Source: a virus
Direction: 5' to 3' (one strand)
DNA: 46,314 nucleotides
IMG/VR virus record: IMGVR_UViG_3300050122_000049
Coordinates: 1 to 46,314 of that record
This document shows positions 3,743-38,975 of the stretch, piece after piece. The number at the start of each line of letters is the position of its first letter. Within the stretch, counting starts at the first letter, position 1. Below the pieces are notes generated by a model. The model was given only the letters and a program-made list of their open reading frames with translations, had not been told where the DNA came from and did not search any database. Position numbers and translations under genes: made by a program.

Positions 3743-4225
3743 ATGAAGGCTTGCAAAGATTGTCGATGGGCGCAGCGCAGATGGTTTGGTGCCTTAGAAT
3801 GCCACCATCCCGTTATAGGAAAACGAGAGGAAGATCGCGATCCCGTGACCGGAAAAGTTGAAAGTGCCGGCTACCGGTCGTGTTCCGTTAATCGAATGCA
3901 TAGCAATGACGATTGTGGTTACGAAGGTTGGCTCTGGGAATATAAGGGCGGTCTAAGCCTAATGCTTAGAGCCAGATTCCAAGCTTTGAAACATATTAGG
4001 TTTTGCTTTCCAGCCAAAGGCTGTCGAATTTGGCGCGTCTACAGCCTTTTAGGATTAAAAACGCGGGCTATTTTTTGCGAATGCGGCGTGGCCTTCGACG
4101 GAAGCCCCATCTTTTGCCGCGCCTGCGGGACGCTTTCATATACCGGCCGTTGCGATTGCACGCGAGCCGGCATCAGGACGCGCCCGGATGGCCCCTACAC
4201 ACACCCTCCGGCGGATCGAGAGTAA
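3743..4225 (+). CDS. Cysteine-rich (zinc-binding) early protein
   Basis: 160 residues. MKACKDCRW, then ECHHP, DPVTGK, CSVNR, DDCGYEGWLWE, is a pattern I have met in short phage proteins of about 65 residues. Here a second part follows with FCECGVAFDG, FCRACGT and RCDC, giving about 14 cysteines in all and suggesting two zinc-ribbon-like halves. The 'FYLRM/LMLRARFQALKH' stretch between them may be a fusion point. C-terminus HPPADRE is a junction repeat. Role unknown; nucleic acid binding is plausible. Confidence 0.6.
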   Translation: MKACKDCRWAQRRWFGALECHHPVIGKREEDRDPVTGKVESAGYRSCSVNRMHSNDDCGYEGWLWEYKGGLSLMLRARFQALKHIRFCFPAKGCRIWRVYSLLGLKTRAIFCECGVAFDGSPIFCRACGTLSYTGRCDCTRAGIRTRPDGPYTHPPADRE

Positions 4226-4230
4226 CCATG
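4201..4230 (+). repeat. Junction linker, class 1 (CACCCTCCGGCGGAT)
   Basis: Ends one gene (HPPADRE) and supplies the GAGAGTAACC ribosome site of the next. The form ACCCTCCGGCGGA recurs at 6311-6335, and related forms TCTCCGGCAGA occur at 4421, 5601 and 6131. Confidence 0.65.
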
Positions 4231-4452
4231 AAAATCATCATTGGCACTGACGATGATATCGAAGAATTGAAGGGCCGAATTGCTCGCGCAATATATGAAA
4301 CGTCGAACAAGTGGATTGCCGAAAACTTTCCGGAAGATCATCTATTTTGTGACTTCTCACAAGTGAACGAGCGTACTTGCAACCTTCACTTTGACTATGC
4401 CGAGGCGGTCATAGCCGCGCTGTCTCCGGCAGATCGAAAGGGCACACCATGA
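4228..4452 (+). CDS. Hypothetical early protein
   Basis: 74 residues from the ATG at 4228 (MKIIIGTDDDIEELKGRIARAIYE). Mixed alpha/beta and acidic; RTCNLHFDYAEAVIAAL at the C-terminal side looks like a strand and a helix. The tail LSPADRKGTP is the class-1 junction linker. A longer in-frame extension upstream overlaps the previous gene wholly and is unlikely. Confidence 0.6.
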   Translation: MKIIIGTDDDIEELKGRIARAIYETSNKWIAENFPEDHLFCDFSQVNERTCNLHFDYAEAVIAALSPADRKGTP

Positions 4453-4616
4453 AGGTGATGATCTCAAAGGATATGGCTGAGGAAGTCATAAAGGAGTTTG
4501 AGGCGGAAAATCCGGGAAAATCATTTTACGAAATGTCGTCGGCTGAATTTGTCGAACGGATGATGGAGAAGATCAAGATAACAGCCCTCCCTCTGGCAGA
4601 CCGGGGAACACCTTGA
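4449..4616 (+). CDS. Small hypothetical protein (56 aa)
   Basis: Starts MKVMISKDMAEEVIKEFEAENPGKSF and ends LPLADRGTP. Helical and acidic, no family recognised. Start overlaps the previous stop by ATGA; its own TGA at 4614-4616 lies between the TTG start of the methyltransferase (4613) and the ATG of the overlapping frame (4617). The C-terminal residues again come from a junction linker. Confidence 0.6.
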   Translation: MKVMISKDMAEEVIKEFEAENPGKSFYEMSSAEFVERMMEKIKITALPLADRGTP

Positions 4617-5380
4617 ATGTCCTCGACCTCTTCTCAGGAATTGGCGGCTTCAGCCTCGGGCTCGAAAGAGCCGGAATGCGAACCGTCGCGTTCTGCGAGA
4701 TCGATCCCTTCTGTCGAAAAATCCTCGCAAAGCATTGGCCAACCGTACCCTGTTACGAGGATGTTAGAACCATTACCGCAGAACGTCTCGCCGCAAATGC
4801 AGCAACAGGAGATGTTCAAATCGATGTCATCTGCGGAGGATTCCCATGCCAGGACATCACAAGGGTCGGCCCGAAAATCGGCATTCGTGGCACGCGAAGC
4901 GGCCTCTGGGTCGAATACGCACGAATTATTCGCGAGATACGACCTAGATTCGTCATCGTGGAAAACTCCACAGGGCTGCTTAATCGCGGAATGGGAGACG
5001 TTCTCGGAGACTTGGCCGAGTGCGGGTTCGATGCGGAATGGTCGGTGCTATCTGCATGCGCCTTGGGTGCCTCACATTCACGAGAGCGGCTGTTTCTTGT
5101 GGCATACCCCCACGAGCACCGACCGAAAACCCGCCGGTCAAAAGGAGATGGATATGATGTTGCGGCACATGGCCGGTACTTCAATCCCGAATACGTACAT
5201 TCGTCTGCGCTCGCAGTTAGCAGCGCGCACTGGAATACGCTTGCCGGCGAACCCACGCTGGATCGAGTGGCTGATGGGGTTCCCAATCGGGTGGACGCTC
5301 TTAGCTCCCTCGGCAATGCCGTCGTCCCACAAATCCCCGAAATCATCGGCCGGGCAATCATGAGGACAATCAATGAATAA
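4613..5380 (+). CDS. DNA (cytosine-5) methyltransferase
   Basis: 255 residues. Transfers a methyl group from S-adenosylmethionine to C5 of cytosine in a DNA target; in phages this usually shields phage DNA from restriction. Motif I DLFSGIGGFSLG (5-16), catalytic loop GGFPCQDI with Cys79, ENS (117-119) in place of the common ENV, RERLF (157-161), and a C-terminal RVADGVPNRV...LGNAVVPQIPEIIG block (218-245). The target-recognition segment (about 165-212) is short. The start is TTG at 4613, the only start close to motif I; a conventional residue count follows (MNVLDLFSG). No partner endonuclease is seen. Nearly the whole gene is overlapped by another open frame (4617-5363) with its own recognisable sequence. 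Confidence 0.9.
   Translation: MNVLDLFSGIGGFSLGLERAGMRTVAFCEIDPFCRKILAKHWPTVPCYEDVRTITAERLAANAATGDVQIDVICGGFPCQDITRVGPKIGIRGTRSGLWVEYARIIREIRPRFVIVENSTGLLNRGMGDVLGDLAECGFDAEWSVLSACALGASHSRERLFLVAYPHEHRPKTRRSKGDGYDVAAHGRYFNPEYVHSSALAVSSAHWNTLAGEPTLDRVADGVPNRVDALSSLGNAVVPQIPEIIGRAIMRTINE
4617..5363 (+). CDS. Overlapping +1-frame protein inside the methyltransferase gene
   Basis: 248 residues, ATG immediately after the TGA of the 56-aa gene. It lies in the +1 frame within the methyltransferase. From about residue 70 it carries patterns I know as separate phage protein sequences: SSAEDSHARTSQ, LFARYDLDSSSWKT, ETFSETWPSAGSMRNG, LWHTPTSTD, and NPRWIEWLMGFPIGWT followed by PSAMPSSHKSP. In many C5 methyltransferase loci this 'WLMGFPxGWT' text occurs beside the catalytic gene. 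So either a real dual-coding gene exists, or database entries of this kind are alternate-frame readings of conserved methyltransferase DNA. The first ~65 residues are Ser-rich and look like a passive shadow. No catalytic function is inferred. Confidence 0.5.
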   Translation: MSSTSSQELAASASGSKEPECEPSRSARSIPSVEKSSQSIGQPYPVTRMLEPLPQNVSPQMQQQEMFKSMSSAEDSHARTSQGSARKSAFVAREAASGSNTHELFARYDLDSSSWKTPQGCLIAEWETFSETWPSAGSMRNGRCYLHAPWVPHIHESGCFLWHTPTSTDRKPAGQKEMDMMLRHMAGTSIPNTYIRLRSQLAARTGIRLPANPRWIEWLMGFPIGWTLLAPSAMPSSHKSPKSSAGQS

Positions 5381-5585
5381 AGCAGCACAAATCGCGCGTG
5401 ATATTCGTTTGGGAGTTTTCCCGAATAAGTCGAAGGAAACCGAGACCGAGGAATATATATCGGCGCTTCGAACCCACGTTGCTGATGGAAATCAACTCTC
5501 GCACCAAAATGGACTCTTCCTTTTGGAAGAAGTTGAACGACTTCATGGCTTGGTCCCTATTTATTTGGGTGGGACGCGCACATGA
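5373..5585 (+). CDS. Hypothetical early protein
   Basis: 70 residues beginning MNKAAQIARDIRLGVFPN, overlapping the methyltransferase stop. The central SALRTHVADGNQLSHQNGLFLLEEVERLHGL resembles the 'HVADGNxLSHQxxxFLLxExxRL' helix pair of many rhizobial-phage small proteins. No function known. It ends at the vestigial frame 5582-5623. Confidence 0.6.
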   Translation: MNKAAQIARDIRLGVFPNKSKETETEEYISALRTHVADGNQLSHQNGLFLLEEVERLHGLVPIYLGGTRT

Positions 5586-5623
5586 CCCTATCAGCCCTCT
5601 CTCCGGCAGAGGACAAGCGATGA
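5582..5623 (+). pseudogene. Vestigial 13-codon frame made only of a start and a junction linker
   Basis: ATG ACC CTA and then SALSPAEDKR, TGA. Its start overlaps the previous gene's stop and its TGA overlaps the ATG of the next gene, so it sits exactly where a gene should, but the body is missing. From 5590 to 5616 it matches 6120-6146 with one mismatch. Best read as the scar left when a gene was lost between its start and its linker. Confidence 0.5.
5590..5616 (+). repeat. Junction linker, class 1, 27 bp
   Basis: One mismatch to 6120-6146. Contains CTCTCTCCGGCAGAGGAC, encoding LSPAED, with GAGGACAA acting as the ribosome site for the following ATG. Confidence 0.8.
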
Positions 5624-6150
5624 CGCTACGGTTTTCTCTCTCCGATGCCGAACGCGCCAGCGACGAATGGGGCTGCAACTGCGGTCCTAGCGCGCTCGCG
5701 GCCATTGCGGGTTTGACGCTCGATGAAGTACGCCAGCTGATGGGCGACTTCGAACGCAAGCGCTACACCAATCCAACGCTAATGCGGGAATGCCTTGAAC
5801 GTACCGGCATCAAATTTCGATGGAATGCGCCAGAACTGCCAGCCTTTGGACTATGCCGTGTTCAATGGGAAGGCCCATGGACAAAGCCGGGCGTTCCGAT
5901 GCGCGTCCGCTATCGCCATACGCACTGGATAGGTTTTCAAAACCGCCCCGATGGATCGACCTTTGGTAAGTCCGGAGTGTTTGACATCAACGCTATGAAT
6001 GCCGGCGGCTGGATCGCTTATTCGGATTGGGCCACGACGCTTGTCCCGTGGATTTTGAGAGAATGCGTGCCGAAGGCTGATGGCGGCTGGCATTTCACGC
6101 ACATGGTTCAAGTCGAGGCATCAGCACTCTCTCCGGCAGAGGACAAATGA
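5620..6150 (+). CDS. Papain/C39-like cysteine-peptidase-fold phage protein
   Basis: 176 residues. Starts MTLRFSLSDAERASDEWG, then CNCGPSALAAIAGLTLDEVR, the nucleophile-type motif 'NCGPxAL' of C39/papain-like proteins (Cys at residue 20 or 22 region). Later HTHWIGF supplies a candidate His and GVFDINAMNAGGW a candidate Asp/Asn. Highly conserved surroundings RVQWEGPWTKPGVPMRVRYRHTHW are familiar from phage proteins of unknown role. It may cleave a host or phage protein; activity is inferred. Its end ALSPAEDK is the class-1 linker. ATG at 5620 chosen because it follows the linker's GAGGACAAGCG. Confidence 0.6.
   Translation: MTLRFSLSDAERASDEWGCNCGPSALAAIAGLTLDEVRQLMGDFERKRYTNPTLMRECLERTGIKFRWNAPELPAFGLCRVQWEGPWTKPGVPMRVRYRHTHWIGFQNRPDGSTFGKSGVFDINAMNAGGWIAYSDWATTLVPWILRECVPKADGGWHFTHMVQVEASALSPAEDK
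6120..6146 (+). repeat. Junction linker, class 1, 27 bp (second copy)
   Basis: Matches 5590-5616 at 26 of 27 positions. It forms the last codons of the C39-like gene and the ribosome site of the next gene. Confidence 0.8.
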
Positions 6151-6338
6151 CCATGGCTGATTACGACAAGGCTATGATGCATGTCGAACTCGCGGCCTGG
6201 CGCACTGCCGCAGACCTCCGACGCGGAGGCGAGACCTGCATTGAGGATGCGCTCATCGCCTTTGCAGTGCATCTGACTAAATTAGCAAAAGAGGCGCGCA
6301 AGGCATCCCAACACCCTCCGGCGGACCGTAACCCATGA
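6147..6338 (+). CDS. Hypothetical helical early protein
   Basis: 63 residues, two possible ATGs (6147, 6153). ADYDKAMMHVELAAWRTAADLRRGGETCIEDALIAFAVHLTKLAKEARKA is almost entirely helical. No family recognised. It ends QHPPADRNP, the class-1 linker as also found at 4201. Confidence 0.6.
   Translation: MTMADYDKAMMHVELAAWRTAADLRRGGETCIEDALIAFAVHLTKLAKEARKASQHPPADRNP
6311..6335 (+). repeat. Junction linker, class 1 (ACCCTCCGGCGGACC form)
   Basis: Shares ACACCCTCCGGCGGA with 4201-4215. It closes the upstream frame as HPPADRNP and leads straight into ATGACG of the HTH gene. Confidence 0.65.
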
Positions 6339-6604
6339 CGCAGACGATCGATCAGCCACTCTATGATCTGTCTGGCGCCGCCATGAAGCTGGGAAACGTT
6401 AGCCGCTCGACGCTTTATCGGTTGATCGACCAAGGCAAACTCGTTCGCGTGAACATAGGCACCAAGGCCGTGATAACCGGCGAGTCCTTGGCCCGGTATG
6501 TTGAAGAACTAAAGGCGACCACTTCGGAAAATCTAGCCCATGACGCTACCCCTGATCCAGCGCTGGAACGGGAAAAAACGGCAAGACACAGCACGGGACA
6601 CTAA
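6335..6604 (+). CDS. Helix-turn-helix (excisionase/MerR-like) DNA-binding protein
   Basis: 89 residues. DLSGAAMKLGNVSRSTLYRLIDQGKLVRVNIGTKAVITGESLARYVEEL follows the HTH_17/excisionase-type winged helix: helix-turn-recognition helix (SRSTLYRLI), 'GKLVxVxIG' wing, and 'ITxESLxRYVxxL'. Such proteins act as excisionases or small regulators. The C-terminal tail (TPDPALEREKTARH) is charged. No integrase is nearby, so a regulator role is as likely. Confidence 0.75.
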   Translation: MTQTIDQPLYDLSGAAMKLGNVSRSTLYRLIDQGKLVRVNIGTKAVITGESLARYVEELKATTSENLAHDATPDPALEREKTARHSTGH

Positions 6605-6710
6605 ATTGAAAACTATTCAAGAAACACAAAGAGAAGCGGCCTTACTTGAAACAGGAAGATACAGCGTGACACAAGGCGCGGCGGAGGTGCTTGAATTCGA
6701 ACTCCATTGA
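6540..6710 (+). CDS. Possible small basic protein (56 aa)
   Basis: Frame MTLPLIQRWNGKKRQDTARDTK... ending AAEVLEFELH, overlapping the end of the HTH gene by 65 bp. 'Q(R)WNGKKRQDTARDTKLK' resembles the start of phage integrase-like or small basic proteins, but the frame is short. The 70 bases after it (6711-6780) are T-rich (GTTTTTGCGATTTTTGAG) and hold no gene; they may be a regulatory gap. Doubtful. Confidence 0.3.
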   Translation: MTLPLIQRWNGKKRQDTARDTKLKTIQETQREAALLETGRYSVTQGAAEVLEFELH

Positions 6711-6780
6711 AATCATTGGCGTTTTTGCGATTTTTGAGTTTTACCCGTGAGATTACCCCTGACCCCGAGCCAAGAAGCGC

Positions 6781-6840
6781 ATGGAAGATGAAATCAGCAA
6801 GGCCGTCGCCGATCTGGCGCAAGATAAGGGATTCATCTGA
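6781..6840 (+). pseudogene. C-terminal remnant of a lost gene (QDKGFI tail)
   Basis: Nineteen codons, MEDEISKAVADLAQDKGFI, preceded in frame by a stop at 6760. The tail and the following TGATGGC are the same as at the start of the window (1-25 versus 6820-6844, two mismatches), and the 18 bp at 6802-6819 recur exactly at 7076-7093. It appears to be the 3' end of a gene whose body was removed, kept because it carries the junction to the next gene. Confidence 0.45.
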
Positions 6841-7106
6841 TGGCGATAGATGAGGAATTATTGAAGCCGAGCCGCGAACATCTTGCGCATCTCAACGGTC
6901 TGATCGCCAAAGCTGAGCGCGAGATGGTGGAGGCTATTGAACGCTGGGGAAAGAACGACAAGGACTACGCACGGCACCGAACCCGAGAATATTACCAAGC
7001 AATTGAGCCGCTACGGCGTGAAAGCGATGCGGTCATGAAAGCGATCGCCGATTATTACAACCTTCAACCAATGCCGCCGTCGCCGATCTGGCGAGGCTTG
7101 AGGTGA
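6840..7106 (+). CDS. Hypothetical coiled-coil early protein
   Basis: 88 residues. REHLAHLNGLIAKAEREMVEAIERWGKNDKDYARHRTREYYQAIEPLRRESDAVMKAIADYYNL is two long amphipathic helices. No known family. Start ATG overlaps the upstream TGA as at position 21. The last codons overlap an 18-bp repeat of 6802-6819 in a different frame. Confidence 0.6.
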   Translation: MAIDEELLKPSREHLAHLNGLIAKAEREMVEAIERWGKNDKDYARHRTREYYQAIEPLRRESDAVMKAIADYYNLQPMPPSPIWRGLR

Positions 7107-7246
7107 CCGCCTTGTCGAGTATAGCCAAAGCGGCCGGAGACCTGCCCACGTATTACGCCGCCAACCGAGCTTGGCGTGAGCTATTCAAGGCCCGCGAGGG
7201 CCGAAGCGCGCGCGCTTCGGCCCTCTCGAATGGGGATCTAAAGTGA
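7103..7246 (+). CDS. Small hypothetical protein (47 aa, GTG start)
   Basis: GTG at 7103 overlaps the previous TGA. Sequence VTALSSIAKAAGDLPTYYAANRAWRELFKAREGRSARASA... ends NGDLK. No family recognised. The last third is encoded by a perfect 26-bp palindrome (7198-7223), so the end of the gene or its existence may be dictated by that structure. Next gene starts at an overlapping GTG (AGTGAGC). Confidence 0.45.
   Translation: MTALSSIAKAAGDLPTYYAANRAWRELFKAREGRSARASALSNGDLK
7198..7223 (+). repeat. Perfect 26-bp GC-rich palindrome
   Basis: GGGCCGAAGCGCG followed by its exact reverse complement, extended by partial pairing outside (CGAG ... CTCTCG). It would form a 13-bp cruciform or a very stable RNA hairpin. 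No U-run follows, so it is not a classical terminator. Confidence 0.85.
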
Positions 7247-7449
7247 GCAGAACAATTGAGCTCTGCCTAGATGGCGGTAAATGTCACATGATGACAGAGA
7301 ACCATCTCCCAGCTTGCAGAGGAAGCTGTTCTATCCAGCATTCCCTAAGCCACGGCGACGTTTGGAGAAATATAGTCCGCCTCGCCAATGAAGGATGGCA
7401 GCCGAGCATTAAGATCGTTGAGCGTGCCCGCGGATTCACTTGGCGATAA
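7243..7449 (+). CDS. Hypothetical early protein
   Basis: 68 residues from GTG at 7243. It contains CLDGGKCHMM and PACRGSCSIQHSLSHGDVW, four Cys and several His that could bind zinc, then EGWQPSIKIVERARGF. No family recognised. Ends where the next small frame's ATG begins (TAATG). Confidence 0.5.
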   Translation: MSRTIELCLDGGKCHMMTENHLPACRGSCSIQHSLSHGDVWRNIVRLANEGWQPSIKIVERARGFTWR

Positions 7450-7592
7450 TGCTCATCCACATACGTGACCGAGGAATGAGGATGGATCTTCATACGGCCT
7501 ATGCTTTGGCCAGCTTTATCGAATGGACGCACGCCAAGGACCGGGCCGAGAGCATCAAGAACTCGGGGCGTGACGGCCGAAATGGAATATGA
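7449..7592 (+). CDS. Small hypothetical protein (47 aa)
   Basis: MLIHIRDRGMRMDLHTAYALASFIEWTHAKDRAES..., with a better ribosome site (GAGGAATGAGG) before the internal ATG at 7482. Mostly helical. No family recognised; overlaps the next frame. Confidence 0.4.
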   Translation: MLIHIRDRGMRMDLHTAYALASFIEWTHAKDRAESIKNSGRDGRNGI

Positions 7593-7671
7593 TGAACTCG
7601 CGGCCACCTGCCTGGGCGACCTGATCTATACCGTCGCGACGACGGGCAAGTTTTCCTCTAAACGTTCCTGA
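7570..7671 (+). CDS. Small hypothetical protein, last gene of the + array
   Basis: 33 residues from GTG at 7570 (or 29 from ATG 7582): MEYDELAATCLGDLIYTVATTG..., ending FSSKRS. Acidic helix; no family recognised. A hairpin follows 15 bp after the stop. Confidence 0.4.
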   Translation: MTAEMEYDELAATCLGDLIYTVATTGKFSSKRS

Positions 7672-7686
7672 GCAGAGAGAGGTTTA

Positions 7687-7708
7687 CCCCGGCGGTGAGA
7701 CGCCGGGG
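7687..7708. terminator. Hairpin between convergent transcription units
   Basis: CCCCGGCG, six-base loop, CGCCGGGG. It lies between the end of the + array (7671) and the end of the - strand GH5 gene (7866). The 3' U-run is weak on both strands, so it may be a Rho-assisted or bidirectional stop. The remaining 158 bp to 7866 hold no gene that I can support. Confidence 0.55.
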
Positions 7709-7865
7709 CTTAGTGAAATCTTCAAATGACAGAGGCCACCATCTTTCAAGCACATATTGCAGGTTCCTGCAAGCGCCATGGTCAGACACTTCTAAGCGAC
7801 GACCTTTCTTTGCGCTTTTTGCAAAGAACCCATCCCCGCTCCTGGCCAATAAGCGCACGTTGATG

Positions 7866-10800
7866 CTACGCCGCCTTCTCCAACCCGACTGGATCGTTGT
7901 CGTTGGAGGATGGATCGATGTCGCGCTTGAGCAGGAAGTTGAGTTTGCTGAATCCGCTCGGGATCGTATAGGTGCAACTCGTCGCGCAGAAATTGAAGGT
8001 CGCACCCTCGCCGTTCTGATAGGCATAGTAAGACGGAAATAGCGGCTGCGGCAGCGAAGAGATATTCAACGCGCCCGTGGCGGGAACGTTCGCGCCATTG
8101 TTGTTCCAATTTCCGCCGTTGAGTCGAACGCCAAGATAGCTACCGGGAGCCCACGCAAAGCCCACCGTATCTCCCGCCGCAGGGGCGGTTGACGCAAAAG
8201 TCATAGTGGCGACTGTGCCTTGAACGGTGGATTGAATGCTTGCGAAATTGGACTGAACTGCGAATCCGGACAGGTACCAATAGCCCGGAGGGGTCAGGGG
8301 ATCGTTGAAGTTTCTTGCAAAAAGCAATGGCTGATTGCCTTGAGTAAATCCGCTGTCGTAATGAAGTTCGAAATAGAACGGACCTCCTCCGGACTTGCTC
8401 TTGGTGATACGAACCGTTTGAACGGCGCTCCCGGCGCCAGTGTGCAGGATGGTAAGATTGCCGTTTGACAGCGTGTAGATGCCCGATCCGATCGTAGTCG
8501 GGTCAATTGTCACGACGCTGTTGCAGATGATGTCCACGACGAAGGTGCCCGAAACGCCGTGCGAGTTCGTGACCTGAATTGAAATCGGATAGGTCGTCAG
8601 GTTCGCGAGCGTCCCGGCAAGAACAAGCTCGTTCGATCCGTTGATCGAAAATAGACTGCCGGGATTGGAAATCAGTGTGAACGTCGTCGTCCCGGACCCG
8701 TCGATGTTCGGCTCCTGCGCCGTCATCGGGCCAGTCAGCACCGTGCCTGACGATGTGGTGGCAGGAATCTGTCCGCCGTCCCATCCCGCCACCCAATTCA
8801 TGTTGATGCCGGTAGGTGCCGCAGCAAAGAATGAAGATAAGCCTGCACTGATCAATGCAGGCATATTCGGTTCGTCTGTAACCACGCCACCTGGGGGCGG
8901 AAACTGGAACGGAGGGGTGTTCACTTGACTAGGCAACGTGACATAGGGCGCTGTCGTCCATGCCGTCCAGCCAACCCAAACGTCGGGATTGGCGCTGATA
9001 TAACCTAACTGTGCTTCAGTTTCGGTAATCATTGAGGTTACGCCGGATATTCCGAACTCCCCGAGGAAAAGCTTCAACCCATTGGCCCGCGCGTACTCGG
9101 TCGCGTCGATCAAGGAAACAGCGCCAACGCCGGTCGCGGATGGATATGGGCTACTACCGCTGCCTCCAGCGTCGAGATAGCTGTGAACTTCATAAACTAT
9201 TTTATTGAGTGGATCGGTGAGGAGCGATCCAACGCTGTTGAGCGTGGTAGAAAACAGGCTTGCCTTTGAGTAGCTACCACCAACTTCGGCAAATATATAT
9301 CCAGTGAAAGACGTGTTAGTCCGGACGCTAGTGATTATCGCCTGAGTTGCCGTTGCCATCACGGACGCCGTGACGAAATTCGGCTCATTCATCACGTCAA
9401 GAATTATGTTCGGTGATAGAGGCGCGTATCGCGCCATCAATTTGGTTTCGAAGTCAGCAATAGCAGCGTTGCTATACCCCGCCGTTCCAACAAGAGCAGA
9501 AAATGTCCCCGTTGTCGCCCCGGACGACGGCGTCCCGTTTGGGACCGGGATCGTGAACGTCGTGCCGTTGATGATGGTGATGGCCCCGGCATAGGTCGGC
9601 GTCGGATTGGTGGTCGCCGTGGCGCCAAGTGTGAGCGTGGCCCCGGCATTGAGGATCGTGGTGTCGGCGACGGTGCAGGTCGCCGTGGTGCCGGTGACCG
9701 ACACCGAGGAAATATCAATCGTAACCAGCGTCCCGCCGTAATCGTGAACATCAAGAACGGCTACCATGCCGCTGTTGACGGCGTCATTGACGGCGCTATC
9801 GAGCGCATCAAGGCCCGACGCTCCACCGAACGAAAGAGTGTTGGAGAGCGCACCGAACAACCTTGGTTGAACTCGCTCACGCTTGAACGGAAGGCGCGCG
9901 ATGTTCATGCCACGATTATGATAGTACGCCATGTAAGAGTCATTGTAGACGCCAGCGAGAGGGGCGCCCTGACTGACCGGATAGATCGCTCCGGGATTGG
10001 TAGATTCCATTCCCGAGAGATTCGCTCCAGTCCATGGCGGCGGGATCGCGACACTGGGCGCTATGACTGCACCAGTCGTAATCTGAACTGCCGGAGGATT
10101 GATCCAACCGCCGTTGTTGGTCGCGGCTATATTGAGCAAGCCGGCTTCGGCAGGCGTATACGTGAAATAGCCAATGGCGTTATTTCCGGCAGGCAGCGTC
10201 ACGCTGGGCGGAGTGACGGTCCCTCCAGCGCTCGCTCCGTTGTCGGCTCTTGTCGCCCCTGGCGTGATCGTGACGCCGCCCGAAGGAATCGTCCCGTTGT
10301 AGCGAACGGCGAAATTATTGGTGACCTGGCTTCCGACCGTTCCGATATTGACGATCTGTAATTTGGGCGCGTCAGGATTGGCGGTCGTGGTGACGATGGT
10401 CGGAAGATCGACGCGATAGGCTAGCGGCTGCGGACCCGTGTAGCCGGAAAATTGCTCCAGCACCGTCATCAACGTTGATTGCAAACCCGCCGATGAGAAA
10501 TTAGCTACGCCCGGACTGGCTACGGATGACGGCCCCAGATAGAAAGCCATTCCCGGATTGAAGTTGGGACCAGCGCCCCATGCAAACACAGGGACCTGGT
10601 TCGATTGCGCCAGAGCGATCGTGTTGTATGCAGCCGTGTTCCACGCCGCGTAATTGTCATTGCCGCCGTTAGCTAGCTGATCATTGCTCCACCCGATTTC
10701 ACCGAGGATCGCATTGACGTTGTGCGACGCTTTCCACGGCAGGAAACCATTGAGCCGCGTTTCGCCAATCGTGGCACTCGTCGGTGTGCCGGGAGGCGCT

Positions 10801-12443
10801 GCGCCAGGCTTTGCGATTTCATTGGCCCACGAAAAAAATTGCCCGCTGGAATTGTTGTCGAGGTAGTTGTGATTGTCGAATACTAGATTGTTGGCGGGAT
10901 CGGTGAGCTGGTAAAGATTTGTGTTGTTGTAGGGCTGTCCTGTTCCCGACTCCCAATTCCAGCCGCCCGAATAGTTGACGCCATCGACGATGATGAGCGT
11001 GTTGTCGCCGTTGGCGCGGATGGCATTGATCGCGGCCTGGTAGGCGCCCATCAACTGGGTTGAATTGAAGCCATTGATCGGCTCGTTCATCAGGCCGTAG
11101 GCATAGACACCAGCATTGCCTTTGTAGCGCGCGGAAATCTGCTGCCAGAGATAGGCATAGGCGGAATTGGGAAGGCGCGTTGATCCAATTGTGGAAGTCT
11201 CTTGTCCTTGAAGAGAATTGCCGTAGGGCGCAACAGCGGGAGAGTTCGTGGGGGTCGAGTTTGCTGTGTATTGAAAGGTGGTCCCTGTAACGTTGGAGAT
11301 TGTCCAAGAACCGTTATAAGCGTCACCTGCATAGTTAGTGAGCGAGAGACCACTACCAACAACCGAGACGGTGATGCCGTTGATCAGCGCAGACGTTCCG
11401 GAATAGGTCGCAGTGACCAGCGAACCAACTGAAGTCAATGATGAGATCGAGAAACTTCCCGCCAGCCCAGGACCGCCGCCAAACGTGTGCAGGTCGATTA
11501 TGGCCTTGCTGCCAACCGACGCCATATTGGCTAGAACACCATCTAGCGCGGCAACGTAACTGCCGCCATTGATATATGTTCCGGTAGTATCAAGAGGCCC
11601 ATTGAGTGCATGCTGTATACCGACCGTACCGAACTGAGGATTATTCTGCGCCCAGCCGATTGGCAGGCGATTGATTTTCAGGTTTCGGTTGGCATAGTAG
11701 GTGATTTCCGGAAGGCCAACGACAAGAGGATACTGGCTTTCCATCCCCGAAAAATTGACGCCAACGAAGAACTGGCTCGGGGGCGGCGGCGTTGTATTGA
11801 TCGCAATCGCGATAGTGTTGCTTGCGGATGTCGCATCGCCACCCGAATCATAATAGACCGCGCCACCATGCCCGCTTTGTAGAACCTGAATGGAAGCGGT
11901 GCCAACCGTGTTGGTGGTCGGTGTAAAGACGGCAGTAAAATGCTCACTATCCTGCTGAAGCAGGTTCGATAACGCGCCGCCGGTTGAGATGTTGACAGCC
12001 GGGAGGTTAAAGCCAAGGACTGCGGTGTTCCATGTGAACTGGATAAGCGCGGTCTGTCCAGTCGTCAGGCTGTAGGAAGATGCTGCGATCAACGACGTAA
12101 GTGGCGGAGGTGGCGGAGGCGGGGGCGGAGGTGGAGGCGGCCCGCCAGCGTAATTGAGCGTGAACTGCTGGGTGACCAAAAACCCCGGCAGAGTGGCCAA
12201 AACCCCCGGCGCAGTCACCCTGATTCCAATCGAATAGGTTCCAATCGGGGTATTAACCGCCTCGACCAACTGGTTGCCGTTTTGAATCGCAAAATAGCCG
12301 TTGGGATTATTGGTCAGCGTGTAGCTGGCACCCGGAGGTGCCCCCGTAATGGATAAGGTCGCGACCAGATCGCCCACGGCTGCATGGGCGTAGCCTGAGA
12401 AGGCGACGGCGCAGAAGATCAGGAGAGCGCGAAGCAGCTTCAT
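7866..12443 (-). CDS. Secreted tandem-GH5 glycoside hydrolase / tail-associated depolymerase
   Basis: 1525 residues. Sec signal peptide (1-21, cut after YAHA), an Ig/cadherin-like segment, a 13-proline linker (102-114), a further beta domain, then two GH5 (cellulase-like) TIM barrels: about 226-665 with acid E454 (MNEP) and nucleophile E582 (GEIG), and about 804-1165 with E1020 (MNEP) and E1129 (GEFG). Both start 'GxNxSGMES'. In both, a beta-rich insert follows the DLH/DVHDYGG strand. A cadherin-like domain (about 1245-1306) and a SPRY/lectin-like C-terminus (about 1315-1485; DTVGFAWAPG) follow. Probably hydrolyses host exopolysaccharide or cellulose. Placement among tail genes suggests virion use; the signal peptide argues for export. 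Start chosen to give the signal peptide. Confidence 0.85.
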   Translation of the reverse strand: MKLLRALLIFCAVAFSGYAHAAVGDLVATLSITGAPPGASYTLTNNPNGYFAIQNGNQLVEAVNTPIGTYSIGIRVTAPGVLATLPGFLVTQQFTLNYAGGPPPPPPPPPPPPPLTSLIAASSYSLTTGQTALIQFTWNTAVLGFNLPAVNISTGGALSNLLQQDSEHFTAVFTPTTNTVGTASIQVLQSGHGGAVYYDSGGDATSASNTIAIAINTTPPPPSQFFVGVNFSGMESQYPLVVGLPEITYYANRNLKINRLPIGWAQNNPQFGTVGIQHALNGPLDTTGTYINGGSYVAALDGVLANMASVGSKAIIDLHTFGGGPGLAGSFSISSLTSVGSLVTATYSGTSALINGITVSVVGSGLSLTNYAGDAYNGSWTISNVTGTTFQYTANSTPTNSPAVAPYGNSLQGQETSTIGSTRLPNSAYAYLWQQISARYKGNAGVYAYGLMNEPINGFNSTQLMGAYQAAINAIRANGDNTLIIVDGVNYSGGWNWESGTGQPYNNTNLYQLTDPANNLVFDNHNYLDNNSSGQFFSWANEIAKPGAAPPGTPTSATIGETRLNGFLPWKASHNVNAILGEIGWSNDQLANGGNDNYAAWNTAAYNTIALAQSNQVPVFAWGAGPNFNPGMAFYLGPSSVASPGVANFSSAGLQSTLMTVLEQFSGYTGPQPLAYRVDLPTIVTTTANPDAPKLQIVNIGTVGSQVTNNFAVRYNGTIPSGGVTITPGATRADNGASAGGTVTPPSVTLPAGNNAIGYFTYTPAEAGLLNIAATNNGGWINPPAVQITTGAVIAPSVAIPPPWTGANLSGMESTNPGAIYPVSQGAPLAGVYNDSYMAYYHNRGMNIARLPFKRERVQPRLFGALSNTLSFGGASGLDALDSAVNDAVNSGMVAVLDVHDYGGTLVTIDISSVSVTGTTATCTVADTTILNAGATLTLGATATTNPTPTYAGAITIINGTTFTIPVPNGTPSSGATTGTFSALVGTAGYSNAAIADFETKLMARYAPLSPNIILDVMNEPNFVTASVMATATQAIITSVRTNTSFTGYIFAEVGGSYSKASLFSTTLNSVGSLLTDPLNKIVYEVHSYLDAGGSGSSPYPSATGVGAVSLIDATEYARANGLKLFLGEFGISGVTSMITETEAQLGYISANPDVWVGWTAWTTAPYVTLPSQVNTPPFQFPPPGGVVTDEPNMPALISAGLSSFFAAAPTGINMNWVAGWDGGQIPATTSSGTVLTGPMTAQEPNIDGSGTTTFTLISNPGSLFSINGSNELVLAGTLANLTTYPISIQVTNSHGVSGTFVVDIICNSVVTIDPTTIGSGIYTLSNGNLTILHTGAGSAVQTVRITKSKSGGGPFYFELHYDSGFTQGNQPLLFARNFNDPLTPPGYWYLSGFAVQSNFASIQSTVQGTVATMTFASTAPAAGDTVGFAWAPGSYLGVRLNGGNWNNNGANVPATGALNISSLPQPLFPSYYAYQNGEGATFNFCATSCTYTIPSGFSKLNFLLKRDIDPSSNDNDPVGLEKAA

Positions 12444-12503: not shown

Positions 12504-13583
12504 ATGTTGATGCGGACCAGCAACGATATTGACGGCATTTTTTCAGGGCAGACGATCGAGGGCCGCTGGCTGGAAGTCAAAGGCCGATCATCAGGATTTG
12601 ATTATTTGCGGATCATACTGGCCTGTCTGATCGTCGGCTGGCATTCCTATCCCGTCGCTTATGGTCCAGAGGCGGCTCTGGACTTCTGGACGAGATGGCC
12701 CGGATTGTTTCTTCAACTCATACTGCCATGCTTCTTTGCGCTGAGTGGATTTCTGGTTTCCGCGAGCAAAACCCGCGTCACTCTCAGCGTTTTTTTATGG
12801 CTTCGGGTCATTCGTCTGTTCCCGGCACTCGCCGTTGAGATCATCTTGTCGGCGCTGATATTGGGCCCACTGCTGACCCAGCTGCCGCTGTCGACTTATT
12901 TCACGACGAGGAACTTTTACAGCTATTTCGGGAACATGGTTGGCTGGGTGCATTTTGTGTTGCCCGGCGTTTTCCTGGACAACCAGATACCCAATGTCGT
13001 GAACGCCTCTCTCTGGACGCTGCCCTTTGAACTCGAATGCTATGTCCTGATCTCGGTTCTGGTGGTACTCGGGATATTCACCGGCGCCGGCAAACGGATG
13101 TTGGCGTGTCTTGTCGTCGTCACGGCGATCGCGGCACTCATCAACATCGCCATGGGCGTGAATGCAGCCCCGATGGGCACCGTCAACGGGCGGCTGCTCG
13201 TTCTCAATTTCCTCGCCGGCGCGGTGCTCTATTCCTACCGAGCCCGTATTCCCTACCATCCCGGCATTGCCGTCTTTGCAGCCGTTGCCGGAATGGTGCT
13301 GATGCGGTTCGACTACCTCGTCTATTTATCGCCGATATTAACGGCCTACCTGACGGTTTATCTCGGCCTTTTGAATCCTGCCCGGACCATCGTTGTGAGC
13401 AGCGGCGACTATTCCTACGGAACCTATATCTATGCGTTTCCGATTCAGCAAACCATCGCGTCGCTGATGCACGGCAGGGCGACCTGGTTGTCGATCGTTT
13501 CGGCCTCGCTCCCCTTGACGATTGGCTTCTCCCTGATGTCCTGGCACTTCATCGAGAAACCGTTCCAGCGCTTTAAGAAGTGA
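12504..13583 (+). CDS. Membrane acyltransferase (acyltransferase-3/OafA-like)
   Basis: 359 residues with about ten membrane segments. Starts its domain with FDYLRIILACLIVGWHSYP, where the 'R...H' of the acyltransferase-3 family is seen (R in DYLR, H in WHS), then PCFFALSGFLVSAS, RVIRLFPAL and a closing SWHFIEKPFQRF. Such enzymes add acetyl or other acyl groups to O-antigen, exopolysaccharide or Nod-type glycans in the inner membrane. It is the only + gene in a 38-kb minus-strand block, with its own ribosome site, ending 2 bp before a convergent stop: a typical moron. Likely role: change the host surface to block superinfection or alter receptor; inferred. Confidence 0.85.
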   Translation: MLMRTSNDIDGIFSGQTIEGRWLEVKGRSSGFDYLRIILACLIVGWHSYPVAYGPEAALDFWTRWPGLFLQLILPCFFALSGFLVSASKTRVTLSVFLWLRVIRLFPALAVEIILSALILGPLLTQLPLSTYFTTRNFYSYFGNMVGWVHFVLPGVFLDNQIPNVVNASLWTLPFELECYVLISVLVVLGIFTGAGKRMLACLVVVTAIAALINIAMGVNAAPMGTVNGRLLVLNFLAGAVLYSYRARIPYHPGIAVFAAVAGMVLMRFDYLVYLSPILTAYLTVYLGLLNPARTIVVSSGDYSYGTYIYAFPIQQTIASLMHGRATWLSIVSASLPLTIGFSLMSWHFIEKPFQRFKK

Positions 13584-31295: not shown

Positions 31296-32068
31296 TGGAT
31301 CACCCTATAGTTGTCGTTCTCGATCATCAGCAGCGCCGATCCGATGTCGATCAAAAGCGGCGAGCGCGATACCATTGCAATCGTTCCGTAGCCGGCAAAT
31401 CGGGCCCATCGATTATAGAGCACGACCGCTTTTTCCGGCTGGCCGCCGTAGATCATTTCGGCACAGGCCCCGACATAGCGGTCATGACATTCCTCGTCGG
31501 GATGGTTGTCGTGCAGCGCCTTGTGGCGGGCGAATTCTTCGTCGAGATGGGTATGAAACGCGCGACCGCTCGCGATCAGGCACGACGCATTCCTGACCCA
31601 GTCTTCGTATTTCAGCGACCAGTATGACATGTCCGCCGGCGGCTCCGTCGGCCAAGCATTCTTGCGCGTGAATTCCAGCGTAGCTCCCACCATCCGACAG
31701 AATGTTGCTGCGGCCTTGTTGAAGGAAGGCACGCGGGTCTGCAAAATCATGCAATCGGTATGCGTGAACATCCAGCGATAGGCCTCGCGTGAGGCGCGGA
31801 TGGCGTGGCTGCCTCTATGATTTTCTAGAAACGAGGTATGGACATCATAGATTCCGCCGGAGGGTTCGTTATTTCCCACCTTCGGCTGCACGAAGATAAT
31901 GCCGCCGCCTTCCGCCATCAGCAGCACGTTGAGCGGATTCGAGACGAACTCCGTGACATCCATGTCGCCTGCCGCGATGCCAGGCAATTTGATGGACTCG
32001 AATACCGAAGAATCGTTCAGTATTGGGTTGATCTCGGATGCATCGAAGGAGCGGCGGATCAGCATCAT
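31277..32068 (-). CDS. GNAT-like P22 gp14-type head-completion protein
   Basis: 263 residues from ATG at 32068 (ATGA with the gp10-like stop; longer start 32152 rejected). Begins MMLIRRSFDASEINPILND, then EFVSNPLNVLLMAEGGGIIFVQPK, YDVHTSFLENHRGSHAIRASREAYRWMFTHTDCMILQTRVPSFNKAAATFCRMVGATLEFT: a GNAT-fold layout (strand, 'RG..A' loop, helix, 'N.AA..F...G'). P22 gp14 family proteins share this fold. Position after gp10 and before gp7 matches P22. Whether it acylates anything is unknown; the P22 counterpart is a virion assembly factor. Confidence 0.6.
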   Translation of the reverse strand: MMLIRRSFDASEINPILNDSSVFESIKLPGIAAGDMDVTEFVSNPLNVLLMAEGGGIIFVQPKVGNNEPSGGIYDVHTSFLENHRGSHAIRASREAYRWMFTHTDCMILQTRVPSFNKAAATFCRMVGATLEFTRKNAWPTEPPADMSYWSLKYEDWVRNASCLIASGRAFHTHLDEEFARHKALHDNHPDEECHDRYVGACAEMIYGGQPEKAVVLYNRWARFAGYGTIAMVSRSPLLIDIGSALLMIENDNYRVIQCRSPR

Positions 32069-33660
32069 GCCCCGTGCACGATCGGCGTATCGAGGAACGC
32101 CTGGTTGAGACCCGTCGTCATGCCTGCAACCCACGATAATTCGAAGACCCAATCACGTCCTTGGCCCAAGCCCCGCCAGCGCAGCATCGATCGATAATGC
32201 CCGGCGCTCGCCAGTTCCTTGAATCGATAATTACCGAAGGTCTCGCCGCCATTCTTGGATACGCGGAGTGCGATCTGAGGCGGACCCATTTTGACCTGCG
32301 GACCCCAAGAAAGATTACGACCTATTCCAGTTTCCTGTCCCGGCGTGACGGTCCATCCAGGAGCCGGCGTTAAAACGATAGGTGGCAGTGCCGTTCCGAA
32401 CCCCGAACTCCATGGCGACGATATCTGCGGCAGCTCGGACGAACCCGGCAATATGCCAGTCGCCATGTCCGCCGTGAAGCACGGCACCGTGATTTGATGC
32501 ATCTCGTTGACGACATGCGGGAACGAGCGGATGCAGGAAATCGGCTGGCCGTTGTCGAACATGTAATTCGGATCGAGCGCGTAGATCTGCCCCGTTGCCC
32601 AATCCATTCCCACGTTGGTATCATAGGCAAAGGCATGGAACGCTACGCGCTCGCGATTGAGCTTGCCGTTCTGGTCGGTATAGGCGCGCTCATGCCACTG
32701 GCCGGTCGCGCGATCATAACCCCATGATTTATTGGCGCTTGGAAAATGAATCACCACGAAACTGTGGCCGCCCTGCTGGTAGGTGTAGCAGATTGCATCC
32801 GACCGCGTCGGATAGGTCAGCCATTCGTCTTCCAGCGCGTAGGTCGAGATGCGCTTGGCACCATAGCCCTCGATCATGATCATGATCGCGCGCCCGTCCT
32901 TGTTCTGATCCAACCAACCTGCGTTTACGTCCTGTGTCCAAACTGAGAAGGGCGCAATAGTGCCATGGGGCACGATCTGGCCGAATACTTCCTCAAGCGG
33001 AAAAATCGGATCGCCGGCGTTGAACCACGGTTCAGCGGTCATGGTGCCAACTGGCCATAGCGTGCGCTGGCAAGCGATGATGGCCTGGATTGGATCGCCG
33101 AACGTTCCTTTCGAGGCTTGGTCGAGCGCATTGAAAGCGACTTGTTCGGAAAGCGAGCAGTAGAAATTATTGGTGCCTATTTCATTGAAGAAGAAGAACG
33201 TGTCGAAGAAAGTTACCCGCGTCGATCCTGAAAACAATCCCGTAGTATCGACGATCTGCGTCATCTGGCGCGACGTCATGTTGATCTGGTAGCCGAGCGG
33301 CGAATTGTCGACGAGGACAATCTCGTTGCCGTTCGACTGGCCATTGTCGTCCATCGATACCGGCGTGAACTGGTTCTGGATCACGCCGATCTGGTTGAAA
33401 TTCCAGTTCTTGTCGATGTAGTAGACGTTCGGCCCTGCCACGCCATAGAGGTCGCCGTTGGATACCCGGAAAACACCGCGGCCCCGTCCCGGCACTGGGG
33501 GCGCCCCGAGCGGCCTGTTGCCCGGCCGGACGTAGTGAGTGAACGGCGATTCCGGATCGGATTCTTCCGGGTTGTTTTCGCAATAGGTATTGACCGAGCG
33601 CTGCGCGTTGGCGATCAGCGAGCGGTTCTGGTAGGCACCGGAATTGAGCGGAATCTTCAC
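32065..33660 (-). CDS. P22 gp10-like packaged-DNA stabilisation / tail hub protein
   Basis: 531 residues. Begins IPLNSGAYQNRSLIANAQRSVNTYCENNPE, the 'sGxYxxxSxxxNaQrxvNlYxE' start of the gp10 family, followed by repeated beta blades: SNGDLYGVAGPNVYYID, VDNSPLGYQIN, FDTFFFFNEIGTNNFYCS, QGGHSFVVIHFPSANKSWGYDRATGQWHER, GQIYALDPNYMFDNGQPI, consistent with a beta-propeller. It closes the portal after packaging and carries the tail. ATGA-type overlaps with both neighbours. Confidence 0.8.
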   Translation of the reverse strand: MKIPLNSGAYQNRSLIANAQRSVNTYCENNPEESDPESPFTHYVRPGNRPLGAPPVPGRGRGVFRVSNGDLYGVAGPNVYYIDKNWNFNQIGVIQNQFTPVSMDDNGQSNGNEIVLVDNSPLGYQINMTSRQMTQIVDTTGLFSGSTRVTFFDTFFFFNEIGTNNFYCSLSEQVAFNALDQASKGTFGDPIQAIIACQRTLWPVGTMTAEPWFNAGDPIFPLEEVFGQIVPHGTIAPFSVWTQDVNAGWLDQNKDGRAIMIMIEGYGAKRISTYALEDEWLTYPTRSDAICYTYQQGGHSFVVIHFPSANKSWGYDRATGQWHERAYTDQNGKLNRERVAFHAFAYDTNVGMDWATGQIYALDPNYMFDNGQPISCIRSFPHVVNEMHQITVPCFTADMATGILPGSSELPQISSPWSSGFGTALPPIVLTPAPGWTVTPGQETGIGRNLSWGPQVKMGPPQIALRVSKNGGETFGNYRFKELASAGHYRSMLRWRGLGQGRDWVFELSWVAGMTTGLNQAFLDTPIVHGA

Positions 33661-37715: not shown

Positions 37716-38975
37716 CTACAAGCTGTCCAGCGTGGCGACGGCCCATTCGCCTCTTGGCCAAAAATACCCGAAAAGTACGTCGACACGGTCGACGGCCTGG
37801 TCGGTCCCCGACTCATAGACCACCAACGACCGCAGCGAACATCGATCGAACTCATGGCGTGCCGCTTCGACCACGCCCCTGCCATTGGAGGGCATCCACA
37901 ACGGGGCAATCACCAGCGACACCGCCTCGCGCTGGAACGCGATCGATTGCCGATAGGTCACGCTGGCATTGGCGAATGGTGTGATAACCGCGTTATTCGC
38001 AGGCGATGCCGTCACCGTCATGTAGGCCTGCGCGGTATAGGGCAGTCCCGCGTAGGGAACGCTGGATGCCGGCGGAATCAGCGCCGGATAGATCGGGATC
38101 GAGGTCGCCCCGCTAAGCACGTTCGCCGTGACGGTGAACTGGCGTGCGAGACCGGTTGACGCAAACGTGGTGCGGTTGACGGCGAGAACGCCGGCCACGG
38201 TGATGATGTCACCCTGGTTCAGCGTGCCAGACAACGCCGAGGTCGTGATCGCGGTGCCGGTCTGGTTGGCGCCGCTGACGGTCGCGGTGGTAGCCGATCC
38301 CGTCGTATGCTTGATCACCGTCTGGTCCCGGAACATGTCGAAACCGAGCGCGTTTTTCATCGTTCCGGTCATGTACTGGCTGGAAATGCGCGTTGCCGGG
38401 TTGAACTGCCCAGCGAGTGAAGACACCAACTTGGCATCGGTATGCGGATCATTGGCGAGCTTGCGCGCATCCATCGTTCCGAGATCGGGCGCCGAGTTGT
38501 CGTCGAGCAGCGCACCGGCATTCAGAACCGGGGCCTGGTTGATGGCGAGGATGTTGTTGTTGGCATCGACATTGGCGGTCGCGTTGCAGATGGCACCCTG
38601 AGATGAGAACATCAGGGTCTGGGCGACGTTGCCGGCGAGCTTGTTCATGCGCGGCATGATGAAGCGTTCGCTGTAGTCCTCGATCGAAAGCGTGCGCTCA
38701 GCCGTGGTAAAGGCAATGTCGATGTGGCGCTGGGTTGCGACTGTCAGCACCACCTGTTGCTCGATGGTATCCTGCAGCGACAATGCCGGGCCGTCGCTCG
38801 GCGCATAGTCGTTCGGAATACGAACGCGCAGCTGGGCGCCAATCTTGGCGCCTTCCTGGCCGAAGCGGTCATCGTAATCGCGATTGACCGACATCATGAA
38901 CATGTTGGAGTTGAGAAAAAGCGGGACGGAATACCGAGTGATCATGCTCGGCGTAAGCAGGTTATTGCCGGCCAT
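37716..38975 (-). CDS. Major capsid (coat) protein, P22 gp5-like
   Basis: 419 residues. Forms the icosahedral shell. HK97-fold markers of P22-type coats: N-terminal SMITRYSVPLFLNSNMFMMSVNRDYDDRFGQ, AQLRVRIPNDYAPSDG, helix MPRMNKLAGNVAQTLMFSS, and a C-terminal core (QREAVSLVIAPL, SLRSLVVYESGTDQAVDRVDVLFGYFWPRGEWAV). A beta-rich insert at about 226-340 (VSGANQTGTAIT...GDIITVAGVLAVN...) corresponds to the insertion (I) domain of P22 coat. Upstream lies a 350-bp gap with hairpins, probably a regulatory region. Next gene follows after 38 bp. Confidence 0.9.
   Translation of the reverse strand: MAGNNLLTPSMITRYSVPLFLNSNMFMMSVNRDYDDRFGQEGAKIGAQLRVRIPNDYAPSDGPALSLQDTIEQQVVLTVATQRHIDIAFTTAERTLSIEDYSERFIMPRMNKLAGNVAQTLMFSSQGAICNATANVDANNNILAINQAPVLNAGALLDDNSAPDLGTMDARKLANDPHTDAKLVSSLAGQFNPATRISSQYMTGTMKNALGFDMFRDQTVIKHTTGSATTATVSGANQTGTAITTSALSGTLNQGDIITVAGVLAVNRTTFASTGLARQFTVTANVLSGATSIPIYPALIPPASSVPYAGLPYTAQAYMTVTASPANNAVITPFANASVTYRQSIAFQREAVSLVIAPLWMPSNGRGVVEAARHEFDRCSLRSLVVYESGTDQAVDRVDVLFGYFWPRGEWAVATLDSL

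Follow-up and report, generated by a model that had tools for sequence, protein, structure and literature searches.

Here we describe a C5-methyltransferase locus in a 46,314-nucleotide (nt) stretch of viral DNA (IMG/VR record IMGVR_UViG_3300050122_000049, positions 1 to 46,314; hereafter the window), at which a second gene lies in the +1 frame of the first. The +1 frame is a true gene and the overlap is real. The two genes very probably encode a two-polypeptide phage C5 methyltransferase, in which the gene for the small subunit (beta) is nested in that for the large subunit (alpha), an arrangement like that reported for M.EcoHK31I. This reading rests on selection acting on both frames, on the division of the methyltransferase motifs between the frames, and on the homology of the beta C-terminus to the motif IX region of single-chain enzymes.

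Alpha (4613..5380, plus strand) starts with TTG and has 255 amino acids (aa), with motifs I-VIII and X; it matches PF00145 (5.8e-43) and phrog_363 (1.3e-76). The maximal +1 open reading frame (ORF), one base on from the alpha frame, has 248 codons from an ATG (4617..5363, plus strand). Both frames lie where a preliminary description, made from the sequence alone, had placed them, the two conserved stretches that it quoted are present in the +1 product, and the DNA encoding RVADGVPNRV..LGNAVVPQ in alpha does read WLMGFPIGWT..PSAMPSSHKSP in +1. Its statement that the two frames cover the same DNA almost end to end holds for the open frames as such but not for conserved coding, which in +1 is confined to about alpha residues 61-229, with a probable internal start; codons of the maximal ORF before ~4797 and after ~5300 are not conserved as coding sequence in relatives. 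The probable coding part of the +1 gene, beta, is therefore placed by the stop depletion at residues 61-229 and by its phrog_1008 match at 4797..5363 (plus strand), and probably starts at an internal ATG (candidates at 4797, 4812 and 4824). The match of the +1 product to phrog_1008 (labelled DNA methyltransferase) has an E-value of 9e-22 and is best over +1 residues 60-177. The best Pfam match of the product, to cytochrome b561 at E 6.4, is noise, and NCBIfam gave none at E 1.

Stop codons were counted in 130 divergent phage C5-methyltransferase genes of 37-69% guanine plus cytosine (GC), comprising 133 unique genes of 145, minus three short ones, with locus L017 replaced by the window; the loci found with the methyltransferase query were the best 80 of at least 599 in IMG/VR and represent near relatives rather than a census. 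Expected numbers were obtained from synonymous-codon shuffles that preserve each protein and its codon usage. At methyltransferase residues 75-227 (21,734 codons), the +1 frame contains 8 stops compared with 416 expected, while the +2 frame of the same genes and residues contains 983 compared with 982. The +1 core is open in 123 of the 130 genes, where 7.5 would be expected. The depletion is also seen in the methyltransferase-query set on its own (74 genes from the 80 loci after removal of duplicates; 2 stops, 238 expected) and in the 20 genes under 50% GC (4 stops, 109 expected). Along the gene, +1 stops are frequent at residues 1-60 and 230-255 and nearly absent from ~61 to 229, and +2 stops occur throughout. 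For the window gene alone, a +1 opening of at least 248 codons arises in 0.5% of 20,000 shuffles (P = 0.005; median 113) and the +2 frame is ordinary (P = 0.80); the single-gene opening is suggestive and no more.

As a control, we examined C5-methyltransferase loci from 14 host genomes, of which 28 were scored out of 30 (one being short and one a duplicate), from 37 places found. The 16 ordinary C5 methyltransferases without a match to the +1 family have 189 +1 stops (170 expected), and the 12 beta-type loci with a match have 3 (40 expected); these classes were set by the +1 profile match and are partly circular, but the alpha profile separates them as well (E <=9e-55 versus >=1e-38). Since ordinary C5 methyltransferases show no depletion, the effect is specific to the family of the window and not a property of C5 methyltransferases at large. 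An artefact of GC content or codon usage is ruled out by the shuffle counts together with the control set.

Synonymous-site constraint was measured as the departure of third bases from each gene's own usage at four-fold degenerate codons, in bits. Constraint on alpha third bases averages 0.15 bits outside the core (53 columns) and 0.66 bits within it (82 columns; p = 7e-9), and rises to 1.49 bits over residues 213-229 (12 columns). Individual codons are nearly frozen, including Ala220 (GCT in 81/83, 17 expected), Gly222 (GGG in 127/128, 30 expected), Gly217 (GGT in 47/50, 8 expected), Val116 (GTG in 78/80, 21 expected) and Gly138 (GGG in 124/127). In the mirror test, four-fold sites of the +1 frame show where frame 0 is constrained: 1.10 bits at residues 1-58, 0.8-0.9 at 81-172, 0.14 at 173-212 (9 columns), 0.42 at 213-229 (8 columns) and 1.19 at 230-255. 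Frame 0 codes alone at residues 1-60, both frames code at 75-172 (motifs IV-VIII), the +1 frame dominates to residue 229 (the WLMGFP stretch), and frame 0 alone codes motif X. In the variable region 173-212, where frame 0 has the 0.14 bits just given and the +1 frame 0.37 bits (6 columns), constraint is low in both frames, so the case for +1 coding there leans on the absence of stops and on the recognition modules described below. Profile scores are also higher for real than for shuffled genes (174 versus 78 bits in +1); they are up in +2 too (130 versus 71) and are not used as proof, since constraint acting on the DNA is visible whichever frame is read. The preliminary description had left the choice between dual coding of a companion protein and a database-wide artefact of alternate-frame readings, and had pointed to +1 stops in relatives and to methyltransferase synonymous sites as places to look. 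Stops are almost absent from the core and synonymous constraint is in strong excess, which supports the first of these options and rejects the second.

The alpha sequences that we take to be motif I (DLFSGIGG, 4625..4648), motif IV (the catalytic PCQ, 4844..4852), motif VI (ENS, ENV in M.HhaI; 4961..4969), motif VIII (RERLF, 5081..5095) and motif X (LGNAVVPQ, 5309..5332) all lie in frame 0 on the plus strand. Motif I and PCQ are covered by the PF00145 match and the alignment with M.HhaI, which also places motifs VI and VIII; within motif X, N235 is conserved in 129/130 genes and P239 in 127/130. The preliminary description had credited the methyltransferase with all its motifs. This did not hold up: alpha lacks the complete set in one chain, its match to Pfam DNA_methylase (PF00145) is confined to profile positions 1-168 of 324, and no motif IX is recognisable in frame 0. 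By sequence comparison, motif IX is instead the +1 text NPRWIEWLMGFPIGWT (5250..5297, plus strand), as indicated by hhalign to single-chain relatives, by alignments with M.HhaI and 4onq and by third-base constraint. Upstream, beta has a conserved N-terminal stretch, FARYDLDSSSWKTPQ..FSETWPSAGSMRNG (4929..5042, plus strand), defined by alignments and by frozen alpha third bases, which overlaps alpha up to just short of motif VIII.

The best conserved +1 text in the family is LNPxWVEWLMGFPxGWT. In single-chain relatives, a NPRWIEWLMGFPIGWT-like motif precedes motif X and both are in one frame; in L166 (Nocardioides), for example, one chain of 505 aa contains motifs I-VIII, PTP repeats, QLSPRFVEFLMGLPAGW and then LKALGNGVVPQ. 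The +1 motif aligns with the single-chain motif in hhalign with a probability of 97.1 (E 6.7e-11, 19 columns). The single-chain profile is collinear in HMMER with M.HhaI 269-307, in which RKLHPRECARVMGYPDSY..GNSVV corresponds to motifs IX and X; this alignment scores 2.8 bits and is not significant alone, but it falls in order after a strong N-terminal match. In single-chain L170, Pfam DNA_methylase reaches profile position 312. For single-chain L179, the AlphaFold model has mostly high confidence at residues 1-160 and 301-390, with a disordered stretch in between, and it matches M.HhaI from one end to the other (Z 24.1, root-mean-square deviation 3.1, 245 residues aligned). The PHROG_1008 profile matches the window +1 product, three staggered betas (see below) and the C-terminal half of two single-chain enzymes. 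Searched against the Protein Data Bank at E 10, the +1 family profile gave a sole, weak match (E 0.68), between its LNPxWVEWLMGFPxGWT part and LEPDEVEMLLGFPKNHT in 4onq, which we take to be a DRM-type methyltransferase with LEPDEVEMLLGFPKNHT as its motif IX.

Between motifs VIII and IX lie repeats that open with (L/W)xPTPxAxD. The variable region of the window beta (5100..5249, plus strand) opens with a PTP-like module (WHTPTSTD..) and, by the tally of PTP in each frame, is the probable target-recognition region. Across the 130 nested genes, the +1 frame has 166 occurrences of 'PTP' (in 106 genes), and frames 0 and +2 have one each; in 53 of the 58 single-chain loci, the counts for frames 0, +1 and +2 are 81, 109 and 4. 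From their place between motifs VIII and IX, we infer that the PTP modules recognise DNA targets. Modules of ~30-45 aa are found near-identical in different phages and in two frames (L193, L166, L191, L225 and others). One of them, PTPRATDGTKGGPNQRGSSGDLMLPSAV with its close variants (the 'PTPRATDGTKGGP' module), is in the +1 frame in 16 loci (of which at least L171 and L194 seem to be the same phage, present two times in the sample), in frame 0 in three (L166, L169, which is the same gene again, and L215) and in +2 in none. Without translation of both frames, the placement of one protein unit in the two would be difficult to account for, and the recurrence of modules across phages and frames suggests cassette-like shuffling.

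The +1 frame sits on a METHYLTRANSFERASE, and tblastn with its product matches 57 phage records. A methyltransferase is overlapped in the same phase in 16 of the 16 phage loci fetched from these records (some of them, from Vibrio, Porphyromonas and Bacteroides phages, at 42-45% GC), in all 48 IMG/VR loci found with the +1 protein and in 23 of 23 bacterial-genome loci; a weak +1 match is present in three plasmid records. The preliminary description had asked whether the +1 family ever occurs without an overlapping methyltransferase. Every examined locus with the +1 gene has the overlap. The C-terminal text also occurs in frame, as the C-terminus of single-chain methyltransferases, and for this reason the constant overlap fits a subunit and is not the sign of an artefact. 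Annotation of the 16 fetched phage loci covers the alpha frame only in 12 and the +1 frame only in four (L005, L010, L011 and L013), of which L013 has its +1 frame labelled DNA-cytosine methyltransferase. In L016 (AlpineSix) and L023, the frame of the methyltransferase match changes near residues 126-130 and the +1 match begins only at 130, so that an indel seems to have struck both genes together; L167 shows a similar joint switch.

Layouts were surveyed in 85 distinct loci, mainly from a single-chain query (the best 80, 79 of them distinct, of 457 loci; near relatives), and classed by motif patterns; the survey is not a census, and one single-chain query recovered its own gene alone. The nested layout, shared by the window and its relatives, has motif IX in +1 and motif X in frame 0. 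In the staggered layout (five loci: L168, L172, L173, L174 and L176), alpha stops shortly after motif VIII, and the recognition region and motifs IX and X are on the +1 ORF, which extends back 236 nt inside alpha in L168. JetBlade, Neeharika16, Abidatro and GordTnk2 are annotated as having two adjacent methylase genes. In the single-chain layout (58 of the 85 loci), motifs IX and X are both in frame 0. The remaining class, 'other' (22 of 85), has 9 +1 stops compared with 31 expected, and several of its members look to be single-chain by eye. Wherever a separate beta reading is seen, it is in +1.

We infer from these observations internal-start translation, complex formation, activity, a target sequence and an anti-restriction role for the window gene pair. 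Alpha and beta would be translated from one message, beta from the internal ATG near 4797-4824. Alpha would provide AdoMet (S-adenosylmethionine) binding, catalytic motifs I-VIII and motif X, while beta (~180-190 aa) would provide a conserved N-terminal part, a variable target-recognition region and the motif IX absent from alpha. The two may assemble into one M.HhaI-like enzyme, to which beta would give most of the DNA-recognition domain in trans. Orphan phage methyltransferases usually protect phage DNA from host restriction, and the assembled enzyme would methylate the phage DNA, most likely against host restriction.

Several observations weigh against this reading. In the 58 single-chain loci (L166-L255, actinophage-type), the +1 frame is still stop-depleted up to the end of motif VIII (20 stops versus 87 expected), reading for example EYSETWPKTGYMSDGRAYELP, which indicates that the N-terminal half of beta seems to have a further role besides supplying motif IX; depletion before the end of motif VIII is weak in the five staggered loci (5 versus 9.8 expected). 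Stops occur in the +1 core of seven of the 130 genes (L026, L056, L060, L061, L064, L077 and L115). Five of these (L026, L056, L060, L064 and L077) have the stop at residue 82 or 91, which might lie before the true beta start; the stop of L115 at residue 162, or the two stops of L061 near motif IX, would remove motif IX. Of three single-chain proteins scanned, only one has a Pfam match that extends to motifs IX-X; in L175 and L166 the match ends at profile position ~161-163. The AlphaFold model of beta alone is poor (predicted local distance difference test score 64) and has no Foldseek match at E 0.001. RVADGVPNRV, which precedes motif X in frame 0, could also be taken for a degenerate motif IX, though the +1 reading of these bases varies less. 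At the beta start, Shine-Dalgarno strength before +1 ATGs across the family is not above that of shuffles (-2.74 versus -2.93 kcal/mol), and 44 of the 130 genes have no +1 ATG at residues 56-73. The interruptions in L115 (at +1 residue 162) and L061 may be true losses or sequence errors.

It is unlikely that the +1 product is real but separate from the methyltransferase, for example an inhibitor, a nuclease or an anti-restriction protein. Such a function would suit the lack of a Pfam or NCBIfam match (best Pfam E 6.4) and the shortage of stops in the +1 N-terminal half where motif IX is in frame 0. However, the +1 product has the motif IX that alpha lacks, none of 87 loci has it without alpha, and the PHROG_1008 profile links it with the C-terminal half of single-chain methyltransferases. 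A hidden endonuclease of the ShiLan type (discussed below) was also considered for the window and rejected, as the gene aligns with its relatives with no inserted block and the Pfam scan contains no HNH domain.

The start of beta bears on whether it is a chain of its own, as the two-subunit reading holds, or continues alpha within a single chain after a ribosomal frameshift. In L136 there is a plain internal start, with GGAGG, six bases and an ATG just before the conserved +1 N-terminus, and L132 and L138 have a nearby AAGGA and, immediately before the ATG, a +1 stop. Across the family, +1 ATGs are moderately enriched (86 genes versus 64). In the window, a Shine-Dalgarno-like AGGAG (4807..4811, plus strand) lies 12 nt before the ATG at 4824, a long spacing, and may serve as its ribosome-binding signal. 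Frameshifting gains from the five staggered loci, in which one shift after motif VIII would yield a complete enzyme, and from the lack of a uniform Shine-Dalgarno signal. It is nevertheless very unlikely, because nested loci keep the +1 frame open from ~80-100 codons before motif VIII, although a shift at that motif would not require this, because the return of motif X to frame 0 would call for two shifts, and because of the starts in L136, L132 and L138. A QLTLF near the +1 N-terminus of some relatives, resembling a sliding-clamp motif, was considered and dropped; it follows from the codons of alpha IDIICGG and is absent from the window.

That the +1 text is a passive shadow of a conserved methyltransferase in GC-rich genomes, gathered as a database family, is extremely unlikely: shadowing is real (codon-shuffled genes still average 78 bits against the +1 profile, which makes +1 similarity alone weak evidence) and all 87 +1 loci first checked overlap a methyltransferase, but shuffles that keep protein and codon usage do not reproduce the stop depletion (8 versus 416, and 4 versus 109 under 50% GC), alpha third bases are frozen only where +1 codes, ordinary C5 methyltransferases show no stop depletion, and the motif is found in frame in single-chain enzymes.

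The two-subunit reading has parallels in known systems. M.EcoHK31I, which recognises YGGCCR, was reportedly described as a two-polypeptide methyltransferase by Lee, Kam and Shaw in 1995, and its small gene is said to be nested in the large gene in another frame, as is the case in the family of the window. The comparison is made by motif division and layout. A gene like that of Salmonella phage S9-5 was found in 4 of 5,426 E. coli genomes. Multispecific C5 methyltransferases of Bacillus phages are said to carry target-recognition modules of ~40 aa. They reportedly resemble the family of the window in having serial short modules between motifs VIII and IX, in their case in the methyltransferase frame, whereas those of the window family are mainly in +1.

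According to PMC3404938, motifs I-VIII and X of M.EcoHK31I are on the large polypeptide and only motif IX on the small one, as in the window, where motif IX is short. The same text predicts the target-recognition domain of M.EcoHK31I in the large subunit, whereas the PTP modules of the window family are in +1 (1/166/1 in frames 0, +1 and +2), constraint at residues 173-212 being low in both frames over few columns. M.AquI, a two-polypeptide C5 methyltransferase divided as I-VIII / IX-X (PMC3404938), resembles the staggered loci (L168, L172-L174 and L176), with I-VIII on alpha and IX-X on beta, although the staggered +1 ORFs also run back inside alpha; it differs from the window, which has motif X in frame 0 and a nested beta. 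The PHROG_1008 label names the enzyme and not the subunit, and the PHROGs output gives no indication that members lie out of frame inside PHROG_363-type genes.

This overlap in phage methyltransferases is not described in the open-literature titles and abstracts searched, a search that left subscription papers outside. The nearest case in the literature is the ShiLan domain of an actinophage methylase, with an HNH endonuclease hidden out of frame (PMC11855218). It resembles the window in being an alternate-frame gene inside a phage methylase gene, but it is a different thing, an inserted mobile element with an endonuclease, whereas the +1 gene of the window overlaps the catalytic core and belongs to the enzyme. 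Split C5 methyltransferases were already known; the form described here is frequent in phages and lacks annotation in the majority of records checked.

In phages, it is difficult to prove that both frames of a long same-strand overlap are under selection. The present case, which unites the two halves of an enzyme, stands on 130 divergent genes, a negative control and a mirror test. It accounts for the conserved 'alternate-frame text' in databases, the PHROG_1008 family being in fact the second subunit. Each of the 16 fetched phage records has only one of the frames annotated and so lacks a gene, and a recoded construct that received the annotated gene alone could yield an enzyme without activity. 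The three forms (nested, staggered and single-chain) offer a natural set of cases for studying how proteins come to be split across frames. Tentatively, and with slightly more doubt than belief, we suggest that they belong to a widespread class of phage methyltransferases that is dual-coded as a rule, with catalysis in frame 0 and recognition in +1. In this class, the modules and motifs IX and X would have moved between frames to give the three layouts in one phase. Given that the +1 frame retains the N-terminal half of beta even where motif IX is back in frame 0, beta would be a genuine subunit for specificity, and its overlap with alpha would keep both parts together under recombination.

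The locus is present in a second viral contig, L017 in IMG/VR, with 99.975% identity to window positions 3881-7860 over 3,980 bases. Elsewhere in the window, an excisionase/regulator-like match is found at 6335-6604 (phrog_66, 2.8e-6). On the minus strand are genes for head closure (32065-33660) and the major head protein (37716-38975), and the virus is a tailed phage, perhaps temperate. A 1,525-aa ORF with a proline run (7866-12443, minus strand) has no PHROG match at E 0.001, and adjoins a phrog_3333 O-acetyltransferase-like gene at 12504-13583 on the plus strand.

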